Virus record (IMG/VR): IMGVR_UViG_3300027128_000009
Span: 1 to 35,386 of that record
Source: a virus
DNA: 35,386 bases
Reading direction: 5' to 3' (one strand)
Part shown: positions 26,846-35,114 of the stretch, one piece after another
Layout: the number at the start of each line of letters is the position of its first letter
Position numbering within the stretch: position 1 is the stretch's first letter
The notes under the pieces: generated by a model
What the model saw: only the letters and a program-made list of their open reading frames with translations
What the model was told of the DNA's origin: nothing
The model's database searches: none
Position numbers and translations under genes: made by a program

Positions 26846-29485
26846 ATGGATTACTTTAAAGAATTATTAACTAGTTATCAAAAATTAAAGAAGCGGGAAT
26901 TCCGTGTTCCTGTATCTATTGACGAGGCAGTTCAATTAGATCCTCAGGCCAAGGCACTCGCGGATCAATACATAACGCAAGCTCAAAATGTACAAAACCA
27001 ACCTCCTCCAAATAATAAAATTACGGTTTCCCAAATTCCGGGAAGTCTTATTTGGATAGCGCAAGAAGGAAAAGCAAGAGGTCAGCCTGTATTTGATGGG
27101 TTTCCAAATGCTGGAGGAAGAGCATTGGCAGTAGCAGGAACTGGCAATGCTAAACAAAATTATAATGATTTTGTAAAGTTATTAACATCTGAGCAAGAAG
27201 GACAGCCAAAAGATAAAGGAGCAGAGCAACAAAATGCTCCCACTCAAGAATCACCAACCAATCAAGTAATAAGTGCGTCATGGCATAATCTGGGAAGCCA
27301 ACAATTAACTATATCGCTTGGTGATGTTGCCTTGGGGTTAAAAGAAAGAGGTACATTCTTCTCTTCTACAAAAAAAATGGCGGGATCATTTTTTAAATGG
27401 TTATCAGGAAGAAATCCAGAGTATGTTACTGATTATTTTCATTCTGGTTCTAATTATGATTTAGAAAAAAAGATAGAGAATGCCACAAACATAGATGGTA
27501 CTCCTTTATCAGATGAACAGAAGCAACAATTCTTAGAGACATTTAAAGAGTATTTAGATGTCTGCGAGAAGCTAGATAAAAATCCTAACAATCCATCATT
27601 ACATGAAGACCTACAAAACATAGCAAAAAAAATAGAATTTGGTGCAGGTAATGATAAAAGAAAAATGAGAATTAAAGTTGGTGTAGGGAATAATAACCAA
27701 CCAATTTATGCAACTATAGGCTGGGCGAAAGGATCAGGTAATGTAAAAGATACTAATATGCTTATGCATATTAATCTAAGTTACGAGGAGAAGGTTAAAG
27801 AGTGGGCTAAAAATCAAAACCCGCAAATTGATGAGGGGGAGCTAGAAGGTTTCTTACTTCCCGTTAGAAAAAGATTTACCGAGTTTTCAAAGAGCGTAGG
27901 CGCATACAATCAGATAGTTGGACGAATAGGTGAAGAAGTTCCTGTTATAGTCTCAAAGATGTTAAATGGATTACGGTATAAGACGGAGGGTGATATTGCT
28001 AGAGGTGAAGCGTCCATGGCTTCCGCTGCTAAGGATTTAATTAAATTAACAGAGGATTACAGATTTACATTGTTTGAAGCTCTTAGAATTGCAGATGAAT
28101 TTAAAACAGGGCAGATAGCAGTATTAGATCCAACACTAGCTCAAATAACTAACTTAGACGAATTACGGGGTGCAGCTAAAGAAACAATAAGCAAAAGTTT
28201 AGATACAATAAAAATGCAAATAGAACAGGAGTCAGGAATAAGTATGACTCCAGAAAATTTAGACAAATTAACATCCGCATTGGTAGACAACGCACTTGCT
28301 AAACTGATGAGGATTAATGTTATAATTCAAAATAAACTAAGACCTAATTCAATCATATCTGTTGGTGAAAACACTAGAAACGGAAAAAAGACTGACCATT
28401 TGTACACTTACAACACAGAGGAAGATGCTAAGAATGCAATAAGAGCTTTAGTAAAAAAGATGCCTAATGAATCAGACAAGAAATATGCTGCTAGATTAGA
28501 AGGCATGTACAAGAAGTTTATTTTGCCTACTTCCGCAGCAGAAAAGATGTATCCTGAAATTAAAGGGCAGAAGTATGATCCTAACGGCGTTGTTGTTCAT
28601 GTGGGCGTTAAAACTTCTATCGTTGAGGGTAGTGTAGTTGCGGGTACATCTTCCCCTAAACAAACCGATCAAAACTTTACACAAGATGTTACTCCACAAA
28701 TGCAAGCAATGTACAAGCGTATACAAAAAGAGCATGGGGTTCCTGAGTCTGAGGTAAGAGCTTTTTATGAACAGTGTGCTGATGCGCGTGCGAAGTTTGA
28801 TGATACAACTGACGCATTTAAAAAATGTAAGAAAAATGGAAAGTACAGAGAAGTACCTCCCTCGGTTGCAAAACTAGTTTTAACTCAATTGTCTGACGAT
28901 GAATCAAAAGCTAGATATGGTGCTAAATTAAACAGTGGTAAAATTACAGAAGATTTGTATCAAAAAATGTTAACCGAGTTACAGGATAAATCTGATTCAA
29001 TTCATTTAGATTCCATTAGAAATCTAGTTGGCTCAAAGGATGCAAATACTAAAAACAAAGGTATTGCTCTTTTAGATAGTTTAATATCTAATGCTGGTAA
29101 TGCTGAAGAAGTACCACAATTACTTGTTGCTGGAGTGTTAGGTACAGGTAATGTAAAAGTAGCTGATCAAAATAAATCAATGTCTGATCTTGTAAACGGA
29201 TTAAAAGATGGATCACTTAGATTAGATCCAGAATCAGATAACTTTGTGTTTCAAAGATGTTTAACTGATAATTGTGATGTTGGAGAACCAATAGCTAACT
29301 TTGCTTTAGCTGATGGTGGTTACACAATGAAGTTTGGTAGTCGCTATATTAAACAACAAAACAATGAACTTACTGGATCAGAGTCTGGTTACCTAGGAGA
29401 AGCTAAAAAACTTTATAATGATTTATTAAAATTGTTGTTTGAACAAAGAAAGTTAATTGATACAATCATTACTAAGTATCAGTAA
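26846..29485 (+). CDS. Large 879-residue hypothetical protein, possibly a virion protein
   Basis: No family recognised. It is hydrophilic and rich in Lys, Asn and Gln. The N-terminus MDYFKELLTSYQKLKKREF is a basic helix, followed by a Pro/Asn-rich linker (NQPPPNNKI). A globular part contains GSLIWIAQEGKARGQPVFDG (about residues 66-85) and FFKWLSGRNPEYVTDYFHSG near 190. Long helical segments fill 330-480, and two Cys pairs occur (QCADARAKF, KKCKKNG; CLTDNCD near 800). The C-terminus is a leucine-rich helix. Its position after the tail genes suggests a late structural or injected protein. The last seven bases overlap the end of the convergent nuclease gene. Confidence 0.45.
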   Translation: MDYFKELLTSYQKLKKREFRVPVSIDEAVQLDPQAKALADQYITQAQNVQNQPPPNNKITVSQIPGSLIWIAQEGKARGQPVFDGFPNAGGRALAVAGTGNAKQNYNDFVKLLTSEQEGQPKDKGAEQQNAPTQESPTNQVISASWHNLGSQQLTISLGDVALGLKERGTFFSSTKKMAGSFFKWLSGRNPEYVTDYFHSGSNYDLEKKIENATNIDGTPLSDEQKQQFLETFKEYLDVCEKLDKNPNNPSLHEDLQNIAKKIEFGAGNDKRKMRIKVGVGNNNQPIYATIGWAKGSGNVKDTNMLMHINLSYEEKVKEWAKNQNPQIDEGELEGFLLPVRKRFTEFSKSVGAYNQIVGRIGEEVPVIVSKMLNGLRYKTEGDIARGEASMASAAKDLIKLTEDYRFTLFEALRIADEFKTGQIAVLDPTLAQITNLDELRGAAKETISKSLDTIKMQIEQESGISMTPENLDKLTSALVDNALAKLMRINVIIQNKLRPNSIISVGENTRNGKKTDHLYTYNTEEDAKNAIRALVKKMPNESDKKYAARLEGMYKKFILPTSAAEKMYPEIKGQKYDPNGVVVHVGVKTSIVEGSVVAGTSSPKQTDQNFTQDVTPQMQAMYKRIQKEHGVPESEVRAFYEQCADARAKFDDTTDAFKKCKKNGKYREVPPSVAKLVLTQLSDDESKARYGAKLNSGKITEDLYQKMLTELQDKSDSIHLDSIRNLVGSKDANTKNKGIALLDSLISNAGNAEEVPQLLVAGVLGTGNVKVADQNKSMSDLVNGLKDGSLRLDPESDNFVFQRCLTDNCDVGEPIANFALADGGYTMKFGSRYIKQQNNELTGSESGYLGEAKKLYNDLLKLLFEQRKLIDTIITKYQ

Positions 29486-30021
29486 TGACTTATTAACCAG
29501 AATATAGCTTCTTTAGTGTATATACTTAATAACTCTTTTAGTTTTACTATTAAGTATTCATTTTTTAAAATTACATAATAGCTTAGATTGTTTAAAAACG
29601 GTTGATGGAATTTCTTGTAAGGTATGATGCACAAGATATCTTTTCTATCTTGTTGGAAGATAACCATTGGAATCTTTGCACACTTTTTAGCATCCCTGTC
29701 TGCTTGTTGTAAAGCCTCGTTGATTAAAGACTTAGATGTAAATGTTGATCCTATGTTTTCGCTGTTGTATCCTTTTTTACATTCAAGTACGAAACAGAAT
29801 TGTTGCGGTGTGATAAGATCTCCGTAGATCTGAAGATGCTTAGGTAGGCTATGTGTTGTGGCAAAGGCCCCAGATCCCGGCGTTGGCGCGAACTCTTCTG
29901 TCTCAAAGTGTTCATTAAACATCTGAGCAACTTTGCGCTGAAAGGTATTACCTTTATTCTTGCTGTTCAAACGCTTCTTTTTATTTTTAACTAGTTTGCT
30001 TAAGTCGTATTCGTCTTGCAT
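29479..30021 (-). CDS. PD-(D/E)XK nuclease, Holliday-junction-resolvase-like
   Basis: 180 residues. The start is a basic arm (KLVKNKKKRLNSKNKGN), then the helix FQRKVAQMFNEHF. TPGSGAFA at 47-54 follows, then GDLI with D68, and FVLECKKGY with E80 and K82. This is the GD...ExK layout of the PD-(D/E)XK fold, together with the TP-x-SGA loop typical of archaeal-Hjc-like and phage resolvase-type nucleases. The usual first Glu of the helix is Gln here (FQRK). It could resolve branched DNA before packaging, act in repair, or degrade host DNA. It is read on the minus strand, divergent from 30068, and converges on the 879-residue gene. Confidence 0.72.
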   Translation of the reverse strand: MQDEYDLSKLVKNKKKRLNSKNKGNTFQRKVAQMFNEHFETEEFAPTPGSGAFATTHSLPKHLQIYGDLITPQQFCFVLECKKGYNSENIGSTFTSKSLINEALQQADRDAKKCAKIPMVIFQQDRKDILCIIPYKKFHQPFLNNLSYYVILKNEYLIVKLKELLSIYTKEAIFWLISHY

Positions 30022-30040
30022 ATTTTTTTATTCCTATGTC

Positions 30041-30049
30041 CTATTATAG
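30041..30049 (-). promoter_or_regulatory. Promoter-like CTATAATAG in the divergent gap
   Basis: Read on the minus strand this is CTATAATAGG, with a sigma-70 type TATAAT about 21 bases before the nuclease ATG. The same ten bases occur on the plus strand in the other divergent gap at 31199-31208. No convincing TTGACA is placed upstream. On the plus strand it reads TATTATAG ahead of the 30068 gene, so it may serve both directions. Confidence 0.4.
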
Positions 30050-30067
30050 TGCTAGGAGGTTTCCAAA

Positions 30068-30478
30068 ATGGAAACAACAAACACCACACAACCTTTAAAT
30101 CCTACTTTAGTAAAAAAAATGTCATCATCTGAAAGAATAAAAGTTTCTTTCACTGATACAAAAAGTAAAGTAGAATTTAAAAACAAAGGCCACAAGGAAG
30201 GTCGTATGAAGATAACACTTAAATTTGGAAAAGATGAATCTGAAGGTTTTTTGAATTTCTGTCGTCTAGCAAAACCCGATAACATGGGTCAGGATGATTT
30301 TGCCAAGTTCTTATTCTACAAGGGAGTACAAGCCTTGCAACAAGACTTTGCTCAAAAGGTAGAGGATTACAAGAAAGAACATCCTGAAGAATTTGCAAAG
30401 GTTCAAGCAGAGATGGATGAAGTTATGGCTAACACAAAAGGCTCCGTTACAGTTGCTGAAGAAGCACCTAAACTATGA
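30068..30478 (+). CDS. Small hypothetical early/middle protein
   Basis: 136 residues, charged. It has a perfect AGGAGG ribosome-binding site nine bases before the ATG. Predicted strands (RIKVSFTDTKSKVEFKN, GRMKITLKFGK) are followed by helices (FLNFCRLAKPD, FAKFLFYKGVQALQQDFAQK, HPEEFAKVQAEMDEVM). The last part looks like an amphipathic helix. I recognise no family. It could be a small regulator or binding protein; its ATGA-type overlap with the following thioredoxin-like gene suggests a shared unit. Function unknown. Confidence 0.5.
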   Translation: METTNTTQPLNPTLVKKMSSSERIKVSFTDTKSKVEFKNKGHKEGRMKITLKFGKDESEGFLNFCRLAKPDNMGQDDFAKFLFYKGVQALQQDFAQKVEDYKKEHPEEFAKVQAEMDEVMANTKGSVTVAEEAPKL

Positions 30479-30837
30479 TGGAACTCGTTCAGATAAAAAA
30501 TAATAACCATCTATTTAAATCCATTAGGCAGATACAGGCTCAGAAGGATAAAAGCGATTTCGCTGTGTTCTTTAAGTCGCCTTGGGATGACAGATGTAAT
30601 TATATTTTAGATCAGTTACAAAAACCCGGGAATGACGCATTCTCGACAGTCTTTTTAATTGATACTTTCGAGACACCCGAGCTTTTTACGGAAGTTGATA
30701 AAAACTTCCCATGCACATCTGTTCCGTTATGTTACTTCTATGTAAATAGAAAAAAACTAAGAGATTACAAGGTCTTCACAGAAGTTTTACCTTCTAGAAT
30801 TCTTTGGACTTTCGGGATTGACGAGAACGATTACTGA
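30475..30837 (+). CDS. Thioredoxin-fold-like protein with degenerate active site
   Basis: 120 residues. DFAVFFKSPWDDRCNYIL (about residues 28-45) resembles the beta-strand plus active-site helix of thioredoxin (F-x-A-P-W-C-G-P-C), but reads S-P-W-D-D-R-C, keeping only the second Cys. VFLIDTFETPELF follows as the next strand/helix. TSVPLCYFYVNRK near 86 looks like the cis-Pro strand. If correct, this is a non-redox or monothiol thioredoxin-like protein; T7 uses host thioredoxin as a polymerase processivity factor, but any link to the PolA here is speculation. Its 3' end overlaps the late sigma gene on the other strand by 51 bases. Confidence 0.5.
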   Translation: MMELVQIKNNNHLFKSIRQIQAQKDKSDFAVFFKSPWDDRCNYILDQLQKPGNDAFSTVFLIDTFETPELFTEVDKNFPCTSVPLCYFYVNRKKLRDYKVFTEVLPSRILWTFGIDENDY

Positions 30838-31194
30838 TGAATCTTTGCGGATCTCAAAAAGGTCCGCAATTTTTTTATCATATTTTTTCCGTTTGGTGTA
30901 AACTAGGCGGAGGTTATTTAAAATAACCGTTGTAAAATAATTAAAGGCACTACCATGGTTCGGGTCAAAGTTTTTAAGTTTCTTTATAATTAATAAGAAA
31001 CACTCTTGTTTGGCATCGTCAAGGTCCACATCAAACTTAAATGACTCTAGGATAGTTCCTATTAAAATATCAAATAAGGCCATTAACTCATCCTCGTATG
31101 GGTTGGGGCCTTTTTTCCGTTTTTTCTTATCGTATTTGAGGTATAATACGATCAACTCCTCAAACCGCTTGTTATCAAGATAATATTTACTCAT
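30787..31194 (-). CDS. 55: Late-transcription sigma factor, T4 gp55-like
   Basis: 135 residues. Residues 58-107 resemble sigma region 2: DLDDAKQECFLLIIKKLKNF, DPNHGSAFNYFTTVIL, NNLRLVYTKRKKYDKK. T4 gp55 has the same pattern (KGLHNFD, PHAYITQ, RIKKERKE). gp55 directs RNA polymerase to TATAAATA promoters, and one lies at 14234. T4 gp55 is 185 residues and ends in a hydrophobic clamp-binding tail (SLDFLYE). This protein ends ...VLVNPESPKNSRR and shows no such tail. A basic linker KKKRKKGP sits at 23-30. The gene is divergent from the polymerase operon. Confidence 0.75.
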   Translation of the reverse strand: MSKYYLDNKRFEELIVLYLKYDKKKRKKGPNPYEDELMALFDILIGTILESFKFDVDLDDAKQECFLLIIKKLKNFDPNHGSAFNYFTTVILNNLRLVYTKRKKYDKKIADLFEIRKDSSVIVLVNPESPKNSRR

Positions 31195-31217: not shown

Positions 31218-32237
31218 ATGGTAGACCTTTTAGATCTCTATAAGAATAGAAAAAACTGCAATAATCCTGTCTGCCAAGGATGTTCTATTCTAGATAAGCC
31301 CAAGCCCATCCATGCCCATATGGATTACGCTGGAGCAGAGCAGACTGATGTTTTGTTCCTTATGGACTCCCTTCGTTGGGGAGGGTTTGAGATTACCAAT
31401 CTTTCCGACAAGGGTGAGGAAGCGGTCTTTAAAGGATATGTTAATCCGATAATTAAAAAGTACGCTGTAGCTGCTGCGATTAAGTGTCCAGATGTTAAGG
31501 AGGAGGATATGTCCCCCGCTAACATGGAGATCTGCCGAAACCATCTACAGGCTACGATAGATCAGTACAAGCCAAAGCTAATCTTTACCTGTGGCAACCT
31601 AGCCATGAAGATGCTTATTAAGAAGTCTGGCATCACTAACAAGCGGGGCAAGACTTTTGATTACAATGGTATTCCCGTCATCCCCATCCTGCACCCAGCC
31701 TCAGTATCCATTGAGCCAAAGCTCGTAACCCTCTTCCAGCAGGATATTCGTAACGGGTACAATAAGTATATCCTAAAGAAGGATAGTGAACTCATTGTTC
31801 CTTACGAGATCATAATGTCCCTAGAGCAGCTAGAGGAACTGTCCTTCTTATACGGACAGACTGACAACATTGCTGTAGACATTGAAACTACGGGCTTGGA
31901 TTTCAAAAAGGATTCCATCATGACGATAGCTATCTCCTACAAGCAGGATGGAGATTTAAAGCAAGCCATCATTCCTTACATCCACAAAGAATCTCCGTTT
32001 TCCGTAGAAGACCGTAAGCAGGTGGCTATTATACTAAACAAGATCTTCAACAACCCCAACAACAAGAAGATTCTACAGAACGCTAAGTTCGACCTGAAGT
32101 TCTTGTATGGGCAGGGGATCACATTTACGAATGTGTGGGACACTAAGCTAGTATCTCACTTTATCCGTGAAGACGCACCCAAGTCGTTGATGGATCTTGT
32201 TAAGCAATACTTCCCCGAGTACCTGAAGGAGTTCTGA
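31218..32237 (+). CDS. PolA fragment 1: UDG-like domain plus most of the 3'-5' exonuclease
   Basis: 339 residues. Residues 14-165 have the family-4 uracil-DNA-glycosylase layout. Candidate Fe-S cysteines are C14, C19 or C22, C90 and C106; LIFTCGNLAMKML, NKRGKTFDYNGIPVIP and the HPAS loop at 159-162 also fit. The usual GExPG water-activating motif is replaced by LFLMDSLRWGG, so glycosylase activity is doubtful. Residues 215-339 are the DEDD exonuclease: DIETTGL with D221/E223 and QNAKFDLKFL with D292. The frame stops after YFPEYLKEF, before motif III, which is in the next gene. Stop and next start overlap as TGATG. Phage PolA proteins with N-terminal UDG-type domains are known; the break here is unusual. 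Confidence 0.85.
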   Translation: MVDLLDLYKNRKNCNNPVCQGCSILDKPKPIHAHMDYAGAEQTDVLFLMDSLRWGGFEITNLSDKGEEAVFKGYVNPIIKKYAVAAAIKCPDVKEEDMSPANMEICRNHLQATIDQYKPKLIFTCGNLAMKMLIKKSGITNKRGKTFDYNGIPVIPILHPASVSIEPKLVTLFQQDIRNGYNKYILKKDSELIVPYEIIMSLEQLEELSFLYGQTDNIAVDIETTGLDFKKDSIMTIAISYKQDGDLKQAIIPYIHKESPFSVEDRKQVAIILNKIFNNPNNKKILQNAKFDLKFLYGQGITFTNVWDTKLVSHFIREDAPKSLMDLVKQYFPEYLKEF

Positions 32238-32713
32238 TGTTAACCGTTAAGGATCCCAAGAAGCAAAACTGGGCTGAGATGTCTCTCACCGAGTTGGCTG
32301 AAGGTAATGCACAAGATGCATTCTTCACTTGGAAGATCTTCCACTTGTTGGAGGATCAGCTTAAGGAGCTAGAGTTACATCACCTGTACGAGAATCTAAT
32401 TGCCCCCATGACCCCTGTATTTGCTGAAATCGAGTACAATGGTCTGGAGGTAGACTCAAGTACACTAGACAAACTTAATGCAGACCTAGAAGTTAAGATC
32501 ACTGGTAAGCATCAGGACATCAAAGCTATTCCAGAAGTGGCTGTGGAAGACAATATGAACTCCTCGGCTGACTTGGTAGACATCCTATTCACACGGGAAA
32601 ATAGTTTCCAACTGTATCCTCCTGTGAACACGGCAAAGGGGAAGCCATCAGTAAACTCAGAGTGTATAGAAATTTTGCTAGAGCAGATAGAAGATGAACT
32701 GGAGTCGAGATGA
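32237..32713 (+). CDS. PolA fragment 2: end of exonuclease and start of thumb
   Basis: 158 residues beginning MLTVKDPKKQNWAEM. GNAQDAFFTWKIF (residues 23-35) is exonuclease motif III with D27; the catalytic Tyr expected four residues before it is Gly (G23). APMTPVFAEIEYNGLEVD, NSSADLVDILFTREN and TAKGKPSVNSECIEIL are the first PolA polymerase segments (thumb start). The frame ends in QIEDELESR. The stop overlaps the next gene's ATG (ATGA), but that next gene is a dNMP kinase, not the rest of PolA. This fragment has no complete activity of its own and must associate with the products of 31218 and 33251. Confidence 0.82.
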   Translation: MLTVKDPKKQNWAEMSLTELAEGNAQDAFFTWKIFHLLEDQLKELELHHLYENLIAPMTPVFAEIEYNGLEVDSSTLDKLNADLEVKITGKHQDIKAIPEVAVEDNMNSSADLVDILFTRENSFQLYPPVNTAKGKPSVNSECIEILLEQIEDELESR

Positions 32714-33264
32714 AGTATACATTGTTATTAACAGGTAAGATGCGTGCAGGGAAGGACGAGCTTGCAAAGATTATGATTAAGCTCGATCCTTCTCTGCGCC
32801 GGATGGCATTTGCAGATGAGTTGAAGAGACTGTCGGCAGAAGTTTTAGGTATTCCTGTAGAAGATCTACACGATCCTGAAAAGAAAAAACTTTATAGGGA
32901 TAGGTTGATCTTTGGTGGTAACCTTGTCCGTGCGATAGCTCCTCATACTTGGGCAGACCATATCTACTACAGTGATGAATACCAGCAAAATAATGTAATC
33001 ATCACAGACGCTCGTTATCCAAACGAGATAGAGAACGGTAAGTTCCTTGCCAAGGATACGCATAGAAAGGTACTGGTTGTTCGGATTGAAGCATCTGATG
33101 AGATCCGTGAACAAAGAGGAGCCAACCCTGAGTTTGAGAAAGATGTATCTGAAATATCTTTAGATTCATATCCGTATGATGTCCGTATTCGTAATGAGAG
33201 CACAGTAGAGGAGCTAGAAAAAATAGCTGTTCAGCTCTATAATTACATCTATGGCAAGAACTGA
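32710..33264 (+). CDS. Deoxynucleoside monophosphate kinase, lying between PolA fragments
   Basis: 184 residues (T4 gp1, the dNMP kinase, has 241). It has a P-loop at 9-16 (GKMRAGKD), FADELKR at 34-40 and TDARYPNEIENG around 99-110, the D-x-R-x-x-x-E pattern of phage dNMP kinases. It phosphorylates dNMPs to dNDPs with ATP, feeding the polymerase. The start overlaps PolA fragment 2 by ATGA, and its last 14 bases overlap the start of PolA fragment 3. There is no intron or intein sequence around it. The family call is good; substrate range cannot be read from sequence. Confidence 0.85.
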   Translation: MKYTLLLTGKMRAGKDELAKIMIKLDPSLRRMAFADELKRLSAEVLGIPVEDLHDPEKKKLYRDRLIFGGNLVRAIAPHTWADHIYYSDEYQQNNVIITDARYPNEIENGKFLAKDTHRKVLVVRIEASDEIREQRGANPEFEKDVSEISLDSYPYDVRIRNESTVEELEKIAVQLYNYIYGKN

Positions 33265-34330
33265 TCCTATTGCAGTCAGTAAGAGTGTAATCAGCAGCAC
33301 TCCTACTGAGAAGCTCGAACGGGCACGCGATTTCTTGAACAAACTTCAAGAACTTCGTGGTCTAGAGAAGTTGCAGTCCACCTACATTGATGGCGTGGGG
33401 AAAGCTATCACATATAACGGTCATGATAAGGTGTACTACGACTTCCGATTCGATGGCACAGTTACAGGACGATTGTCTTGTGCTGCATATTCCGCTCGTG
33501 AGAATATGGGTGTGTCGTTCCACACTTTGCCTCGGACCAAGGATCCGAACATCCGTAGCCTATTCGTAGCTCCCAAAGATCACTACTTTATCGCTGCTGA
33601 CTACTCAGCGATGGAACTTAGAATCTTGGCTCATGTGTGCAAAGATAAAAACTTAGTGCAAGCGTTCTTCTCTGGTCAAGACCTGCACAAGTACACAGCC
33701 TCGCTTATTTGGAAGAAGCCTATCGACCAGATCACTAAGGAAGAACGCCAGATCGCTAAGTCAGTTTCGTTCTTGATCGTGTATGGTGGTAGCGAGTTCA
33801 AGCTCAGTAAGACTGTTAATATTGATATTGACGAAGCTAAAGACATCATTGATACTTATGGAACGGTTTATCCCGGCGTGTTTGCTTGGATGAATGAGGT
33901 CAAGGAATACATTAACAAGAATAAGTACGCCAAGAGTATTTTCGGTCGCCGTAGAAATCTAGACAATATCAGATCTCCTATCCCCAAGATCCGTTCTCGT
34001 TGCGAGCGTCAGGGTGTGAATTTCATTATCCAAAGCTCTGCATCAGAGATCACAACCTTCGCACTTTTAGATATTGCTCAAGAGTTTAAAGCGCAAAACA
34101 TGCAATCTCGTGTTGTTGCAAGCGTACACGACTCGATTGAAGTTGTTAGTCCCAAGGATGAGATTGACGAAGCTCTGATGATTATGAATCATAAAATGAC
34201 ACAATACCCCTACCTCCGTAAGGTCATGGGATTTAATTGTGCAGTCCCCATGGCTATTGAGGATGTAAAGTTTAACAAGAGTGGCGGTGTCGCCAATATT
34301 AAGGAGATTAAGAATGTCATTGTCGGCTGA
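33251..34330 (+). CDS. PolA fragment 3: fingers and palm of family-A DNA polymerase
   Basis: 359 residues. Residues 20-48 finish the thumb (LEKLQSTYIDGV). FRFDGTVTGRLSC at 66-77 follows, then motif A DYSAMELRILAH with D117, motif B RQIAKSVSFLIVYGG with R166, K170 and F174, and motif C VHDSIE with H293/D294. All polymerase catalytic residues are therefore present. F174 sits at the site that decides ddNTP discrimination. No ribosome-binding site precedes the ATG, which lies inside the dNMP kinase gene, so translation is coupled. This fragment shares its frame with fragment 2. It overlaps the ThyX gene by 17 bases. Confidence 0.9.
   Translation: MARTDPIAVSKSVISSTPTEKLERARDFLNKLQELRGLEKLQSTYIDGVGKAITYNGHDKVYYDFRFDGTVTGRLSCAAYSARENMGVSFHTLPRTKDPNIRSLFVAPKDHYFIAADYSAMELRILAHVCKDKNLVQAFFSGQDLHKYTASLIWKKPIDQITKEERQIAKSVSFLIVYGGSEFKLSKTVNIDIDEAKDIIDTYGTVYPGVFAWMNEVKEYINKNKYAKSIFGRRRNLDNIRSPIPKIRSRCERQGVNFIIQSSASEITTFALLDIAQEFKAQNMQSRVVASVHDSIEVVSPKDEIDEALMIMNHKMTQYPYLRKVMGFNCAVPMAIEDVKFNKSGGVANIKEIKNVIVG
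34301..34307 (+). promoter_or_regulatory. Ribosome-binding site choosing the ThyX start at 34314
   Basis: AAGGAGA lies six bases before ATG 34314. The frame runs further up to a GTG at 34281, inside the polymerase gene, but that codon has no such site and adds residues (MAVSPILRRLR) that do not look like ThyX. The start at 34314 is therefore preferred. Confidence 0.85.
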
Positions 34331-35114
34331 AAACCCTAATAGAAGTTATTTCCTCAACGATGGTATTGGGTTTATTTCAATCGTAGATAGGATGAAGAAT
34401 GATGCTGCCTTGAAAGTAGTAAACGCAGCACGCATTAGTTATTCTAAAGTACGATACGAGATGGAAGAGAAGGATATTAATTTAGTTAAGTTCCTTCTTG
34501 CACACTCGCATACATCTCCGTTCCGTCATAGCTACTATACCTTCCATGTTAAAGCTCCCCTATTTACACTCCGTCAATGGATAAAGTATCAGGTAGGCAG
34601 TACTTGGAGAAAATACGAAGTTGATGGGAACCCTGTGTCTGTAGAGATGTTTGATCTGATGTACGATACAGACAAGGGATGCTCGTGGAATGAGGTGAGT
34701 GGTCGATACGCTCCATTCAAGCCTGAGTTCTACATTCCGATGATGATGCGTGCAAACCCTCCTCACGGCAATAAGCAGGCTAGTGTTGTGCTTGGATCAG
34801 ACTTCGATCACTCAGCAGCTAGAATTAAGATGTTTAATGAGTGCGAAGCTGCCTACAAAGCATACGAGGAAAGAATTGAATCAGGTATTGCTAAGGAGAT
34901 CGCTCGTATGATGCTTCCTCAAAACATCTACACAGAGGCGTACTGGACTGTGAGCTTGCAGGGAGTACTACACTTCTTACAGCAACGACTACACCCCGAT
35001 GCTCAGTTCGAGATTCAGCGTGCAGCAAATTCTATATATACCCTCGTCTGTCCTGACCTAAACAGAATGGAAATAACTAAGTCTTCTATCTTAGGGGGTG
35101 AAACAAATGCGTGA
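34314..35114 (+). CDS. thyX: Flavin-dependent thymidylate synthase ThyX
   Basis: 266 residues. It converts dUMP to dTMP using FAD and methylene-tetrahydrofolate. Visible motifs: HTSPFRH at 66-72, LRQWIKYQVGS at 87-96, SWNEVSGRY at 124-132, LPQNIYTEAYW and the C-terminal HFLQQRLHPDAQFEIQ with the substrate/FAD residues. Two things are odd: the family motif RHR is KYQ here, and 28 extra residues lie between it and the S-x-N-E-x-S motif that normally follows after two residues. Overlap with PolA fragment 3 and with the next gene shows it belongs to the replication operon. The identity is firm; activity should be checked. Confidence 0.88.
   Translation: MSLSAENPNRSYFLNDGIGFISIVDRMKNDAALKVVNAARISYSKVRYEMEEKDINLVKFLLAHSHTSPFRHSYYTFHVKAPLFTLRQWIKYQVGSTWRKYEVDGNPVSVEMFDLMYDTDKGCSWNEVSGRYAPFKPEFYIPMMMRANPPHGNKQASVVLGSDFDHSAARIKMFNECEAAYKAYEERIESGIAKEIARMMLPQNIYTEAYWTVSLQGVLHFLQQRLHPDAQFEIQRAANSIYTLVCPDLNRMEITKSSILGGETNA

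Follow-up and report, generated by a model that had tools for sequence, protein, structure and literature searches.

In the analyzed stretch of viral DNA (the window; 35,386 nucleotides, positions 1 to 35,386 of IMG/VR record IMGVR_UViG_3300027128_000009), a family A DNA polymerase (PolA) is encoded in three separate ORFs, p1, p2 and p3, with a complete dNMP kinase gene placed between the second and the third. The usual single-polypeptide form of the enzyme is absent, and three ORFs are also found in the close relatives of this locus. A multi-subunit PolA, co-transcribed with passenger genes, is the most likely explanation: we consider it probable that this is a split replicative polymerase, whose pieces assemble in trans and whose seams carry such genes.

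According to this explanation, a lineage of uncultivated tailed phages would produce three separately translated, translationally coupled polypeptides: (i) p1, composed of a UDG-like domain and the N-terminal half of the exonuclease, (ii) p2, with the C-terminal half of the exonuclease and the thumb, and (iii) p3, with the fingers and the palm. By analogy with the split gp43 of T4-like phages, these would come together in trans as a single working enzyme, in which contact between p1 and p2 would complete the exonuclease site, and contact between p2 and p3 the thumb.

The four ORFs, and the junctions between them that had been reported in a first-pass annotation of this DNA (TGATG for p1/p2, ATGA for p2/kinase and a 14-base overlap for kinase/p3), were read in the sequence; the features are summarized in Table 1. 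Profile searches upheld the assignment of the three ORFs to successive PolA segments. The p1 product matched UDG (PF03167; 1.5e-8) and exonuclease (PF01612; 5e-17) profiles, and was also matched by alignment with UDG family 4 and Klenow. A Pfam search with p2 gave no match, and this product was recognized by PHROG polymerase profiles only (PHROG 17, DNA polymerase; 7e-13). The p3 product matched the palm/fingers profile of family A DNA polymerases, with motifs A, B and C present. When concatenated, p1, p2 and p3 are colinear over their whole length with unsplit PolA of phages (e.g. MW202455), and both junctions are seamless in comparison with unsplit PolA and Klenow.

Table 1. Features of the split polymerase locus (window positions, unless a locus is named).
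Feature	Position	Strand	Description
p1	31218-32237	+	339 aa; N-terminal UDG-like domain and N-terminal part of DEDD 3'-5' exonuclease
p1 exonuclease catalytic residues	D221, E223, D292	+	invariant D/E/D
AAGGAG, Shine-Dalgarno-like	32226-32231	+	5 bases upstream of p2 ATG, inside p1 end; read from sequence
p2	32237-32713	+	158 aa; C-terminal part of exonuclease (exo III motif GNAQD) and most of thumb
p2 D27 codon	32315-32317	+	exonuclease catalytic residue in trans to p1; equivalent to Klenow D501
dNMP kinase	32710-33264	+	184 aa; P-loop GKMRAGKD; between p2 and p3
p3	33251-34330	+	359 aa; thumb end, fingers, palm; PF00476, 2e-80
p3 motifs	A: D117; B: R166/K170/F174/Y178; C: H293-D294-S295	+	invariant or nearly so
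ThyX thymidylate synthase	34314-35114	+	next gene, same operon; PF02511, 2.9e-39
SbcD-like phosphoesterase	from 35107		gene after ThyX
Seam proteins of approx. 61-70 aa	L067 3134-3337; L073 3370-3558; L076 3349-3561; L083 3370-3558; L097 3372-3557		

The region upstream of p1 (29479-31194) contains a conserved block, composed of a minus-strand PDDEXK_15/RusA-like gene, two small plus-strand genes and a minus-strand sigma-region-2-like gene, with the same order across the clade.

A search for the same split in related phage genomes, as the first-pass annotation had proposed, was successful. The order p1, p2, kinase, p3 was identified in three IMG/VR contigs from three other metagenomes (L001-L003), another IMG/VR contig (L033) contains p1 and p2 and is cut off after the start of the kinase gene, and four loci (L004-L007) carry p1, p2 and p3 without the kinase gene. 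The wider family, collected by a scan with a diversified alignment (loci at 41-57% identity), consists of metagenomic assemblies. Values of dN/dS were 0.02-0.12 where dS was unsaturated, and the distances of p1 were correlated with those of p2+p3 (r = 0.94; 0 of 2000 permutations), which argues that the pieces are co-inherited. Decay and assembly error are ruled out as sources of the arrangement by the independent contigs, the low dN/dS and the conserved catalytic residues; it has evolved and been maintained, as was originally suggested.

A nucleotide search of phage records gave no match, and a protein search of these records retrieved only PolA of <60% identity (approx. 36% for the best among the matches listed); no isolate in the collection was therefore found to carry the family. 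A scan of genome contigs for the family found nothing.

The p1/p2 split occurs at an identical site in every locus of the clade in which both sides are present (approx. 45 distinct loci). In the alignment of natural p2+p3 fusions of relatives with Klenow, G23 of p2 corresponds to Y497 and D27 to D501, which puts the first seam after exo motif II and before exo motif III of the exonuclease domain. Residue conservation was counted in 45 distinct p1 and 49 distinct p2 sequences. All four metal-binding acids of a DEDDy exonuclease are present, divided between p1 (D, E and D, in 45/45) and p2 (D27, in 49/49), and proofreading should therefore depend on the two chains coming together in trans. This invariant, divided active site also lends indirect support to a working polymerase assembled from the pieces. 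At the position four residues before the last Asp, all 49 p2 sequences have Gly (G23) in place of the Tyr of a DEDDy site, so that the exonuclease may be weakly active or inactive even though the four acids are conserved. In a structure predicted for p1 alone, the UDG and exonuclease folds were present and the last 30 residues were poorly ordered, as expected for half a domain.

Four cysteines in the UDG-like part of p1 (C19, C22, C90 and C106; window 31218-31720), equivalent to the Fe-S cysteines in UDG of family 4, are retained in only 17 of the 45 p1 sequences, so that in part of the clade this domain has probably ceased to perform its original function.

The loss of these cysteines in many members, the Tyr to Gly replacement and the resemblance to Bst-type polymerase structures, which lack proofreading, could also be explained if p1 were an independent UDG/exonuclease-like protein, with a dead exonuclease, and the polymerase consisted of p2+p3 (or p3) only. 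However, the four acids are invariant in divergent members, and across two separate proteins, which would be unexpected for a dead site, and p1 is co-inherited with p2+p3. We consider this alternative unlikely.

It could also be proposed that programmed frameshifting fuses the pieces, giving a single-chain polymerase in the window and other forms that lack an insert, since p1 and p2 overlap by one base and one frameshift would be enough to join them, as it would for p2 and p3 in the kinase-less forms. Against this, the p2 frame is open for just 6-11 codons upstream of the ATG, and no slippery heptamer was read at the p1/p2 junction. Moreover, the start of p2 (MLT in 48 of the 49 distinct sequences, VLT with a GTG start in the remaining one) is kept even when 1-3.7 kb of cargo separates it from p1; in L084/L135, where this distance reaches 3.7 kb, fusion by frameshifting is excluded. 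This makes frameshifting extremely improbable as a general explanation. Equivalents of the Shine-Dalgarno-like sequence of p2 are present in the kinase-less loci L006 (GAAGGAG) and L004 (GAAAGAG).

A distant phage PolA encoded in L028 (4116-6249) is also divided: an exonuclease of 211 aa and a polymerase of 532 aa occupy frames that overlap, and the split follows the exonuclease domain.

The p1/p2 seam is a hotspot for inserted genes, although the locus is otherwise syntenic. Gene order near the polymerase is almost fixed (RusA/PDDEXK_15-like, two small genes, sigma-like, p1, p2, p3, (ThyX), SbcD, SbcC, (GroES), RNR). At the p1/p2 seam, cargo was found in 25 of 44 loci, with 12 content types, versus 0 of 44 loci and one content type at the sigma/p1 boundary (Fisher p ~5e-10). 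The four boundaries upstream of p1 contain cargo in 0/26, 0/27, 0/34 and 0/44 loci, and SbcD/SbcC in 1/34; Fisher p values for p1/p2 against the compared boundaries are between 5e-10 and 2e-7, with the reservation that the loci are related and not independent. The count of changes on the tree, at least 14 at this seam, therefore carries more weight than the Fisher test.

The cargo of the p1/p2 seam comprises genes for glutamine synthetase (GS), ThyX, a saccharopine-dehydrogenase-like protein, PDDEXK_11, DUF3310 and small ORFs. The largest insert (GS, ThyX and a gene encoding 659 aa) is that of L084/L135, and in L087-L089 ThyX is encoded inside this seam, as opposed to downstream of p3 in the window. 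Among the relatives, a PD-(D/E)XK nuclease occurs at this seam only in L090, L093, L094 and L101.

A family of small proteins (approx. 61-70 aa; Table 1) recurs in the p1/p2 seam of divergent members, mostly encoded just before p2 and overlapping its start. One possible role for these proteins is that of a small partner to the split polymerase.

Phage polymerase genes often contain introns or inteins (the intein of KSY1; introns cited in PMC10580990), and cargo of this kind could lie within self-splicing elements whose removal restores one polymerase. However, the cargo genes encode ordinary enzymes, and members with no insert still have the p1 stop codon and the p2 ATG, so that splicing would yield no open frame. 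A search for Rfam introns in ten family loci and in the window region found none, and we assign this possibility an almost negligible probability.

The second seam is located in the thumb, between two helices. The p2 and p3 segments are fused in about half of the clade members and separate in the rest, which requires at least three changes of state on the tree (unrooted parsimony). L071, L082 and L105 are nested within fused members, and their p2/p3 split is thus independent of that in the clade of the window; the second lineage with this split carries no kinase gene. In L115, which has the longest branch, p2 and p3 are fused via a longer loop at the position where the others are split. This is only a hint that the loop predates the split, since the placement of L115 on the tree is unsure. 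The predicted structure of the natural p2+p3 fusion of L069 matched Bst Pol I at TM 0.75, and such a fusion is predicted to fold as a Bst/Klenow-type PolA.

Residues D117, R166, K170, F174, Y178 and D294 of p3 are conserved across the family. The window p3 has a 33-base in-frame gap (at 34262) relative to all of its relatives, and the 11 absent residues correspond to a conserved C-terminal strand, VEVGxSFGGGV (the VEVGTSFGGGV region). The gap represents either a deletion in the window phage or an assembly fault; without these residues, the window copy of the polymerase may be impaired.

The presence of a complete dNMP kinase gene between the second and third pieces, noted at first pass, was confirmed by a match to PHROG 139 (dNMP kinase; 6e-24), by the P-loop (residues 9-16) and by the same gene order in L001-L003; matches to the Pfam families DNMK and P-mevalo_kinase were only below the cut-offs. 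The gene occupies the p2/p3 seam exclusively in the subclade of the window: it is complete in L001-L003, its start is visible in L033, and it is absent from L004-L007. Kinases from outside the clade share approx. 27-35% identity with it, and in none of the loci of such relatives that were examined (L012-L020) does the split polymerase adjoin the kinase gene.

The first-pass annotation also proposed that the kinase gene was inserted into one ancestral polA gene and split it, and that the pieces and the kinase form a physical complex. The tight overlaps that embed the gene in the window and in L001-L003 would fit such a nucleotide-channelling complex, as would the nucleotide-related cargo (ThyX) of some relatives, but neither part of the proposal withstood the comparison with related loci. 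L004-L007 have the same p2/p3 split without the kinase gene, and this split is therefore older than the kinase insertion; a second lineage is split here without it, and the p1/p2 split exists throughout the clade without any kinase. The common frame of p2 and p3, regarded as a sign of insertion, is real in the kinase-bearing form but restricted to it: in L004-L007, p2 and p3 overlap by ATGA in different frames. A complex is further opposed by the genes in the other seam, which are unrelated to one another and in part not related to nucleotides (GS, dehydrogenase, nuclease).

Finally, the synonymous distance between the window and L002 is 0.52 for the kinase gene (5460-6014 in L002) and 0.16-0.21 for p1, p2 and p3. 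This 2.5-3-fold difference from the polymerase flanks suggests that kinase alleles have been exchanged by recombination, and is what would be expected if the kinase were a passenger open to exchange and not a subunit co-evolving with the polymerase. Insertion with channelling is consequently highly improbable.

Considering the kinase-less relatives, the higher kinase dS and the functionally unrelated cargo in the other seam, the kinase is best read as a co-transcribed operon passenger, with no structural part in the polymerase. It would feed the dNTP supply, a role deduced from its family and not from its position.

The tree suggests an order of events for the multi-subunit polymerase with passenger genes. 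The p1/p2 split, common to the whole clade, would have occurred first, and the p2/p3 split later, with more than one origin; entry of the dNMP kinase gene was most likely last, since it is found in this seam only in the subclade of the window. Since the seams are stop/start junctions already, insertions there would be tolerated, and complete genes in the orientation of the operon could accumulate as its passengers. There is a slim chance that the clade-wide family A replicase is proofreading only when p1 and p2 meet, and that the seam enzymes (dNMP kinase, ThyX, GS) are recruited co-translationally into an exchangeable replication-metabolism complex.

If the pieces assemble, this would be a natural, deep-rooted family A polymerase with an exonuclease active site shared by two polypeptides, and a ready system for asking how subunit supply regulates, or dispenses with, proofreading. 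The locus also shows that phage metabolic genes can come to insert preferentially at seams within an essential enzyme, which offers auxiliary metabolic genes a way into replication operons. For annotators, such split loci should not be taken for frameshift errors.

Split phage polymerases are already known; as far as we searched, the split site, depth and cargo described here are new. No matching description was found in the open-access literature, which, given this restriction, is weak evidence of novelty.

Among the closest precedents is the split gene 43 (PolB; 43A/43B) of the T4-like phages 44RR and Aeromonas phage 25, the products of which co-purify and are active (Petrov, Ratnayaka and Karam 2010, reviewed in PMC2988022). 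It too is a phage replicative polymerase in separate polypeptides, with other DNA (IC-UTS, a seg endonuclease gene) at the seam, and the split may have been in place before the inserted gene arrived (PMC2988022). However, this is a family B enzyme with one split, and its cargo is a homing endonuclease gene or untranslated sequence, not metabolic enzymes; the window seam contains no homing endonuclease gene, the dNMP kinase gene being there instead. Likewise, NrdA of Aeromonas phage Aeh1, split by MobE, is an essential enzyme active as two chains (PMC2988022), but it is a ribonucleotide reductase with homing endonuclease cargo.

Within family A, the polymerase of Methylophilales phages MEP401/MEP402 (OP830906, L136), and of most group I genomes, is divided between two ORFs that flank a small one (PMC10580990). 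Its split is located just before motif A in the palm, and not in the exonuclease or thumb, and ORF14 is a small protein with no assigned function; it was not encountered among members of the window clade. The PolA of Lactobacillus phage 521B is also annotated as two pieces, but is divided inside the polymerase domain, by 335 bp without an annotated gene, which may be an intron.
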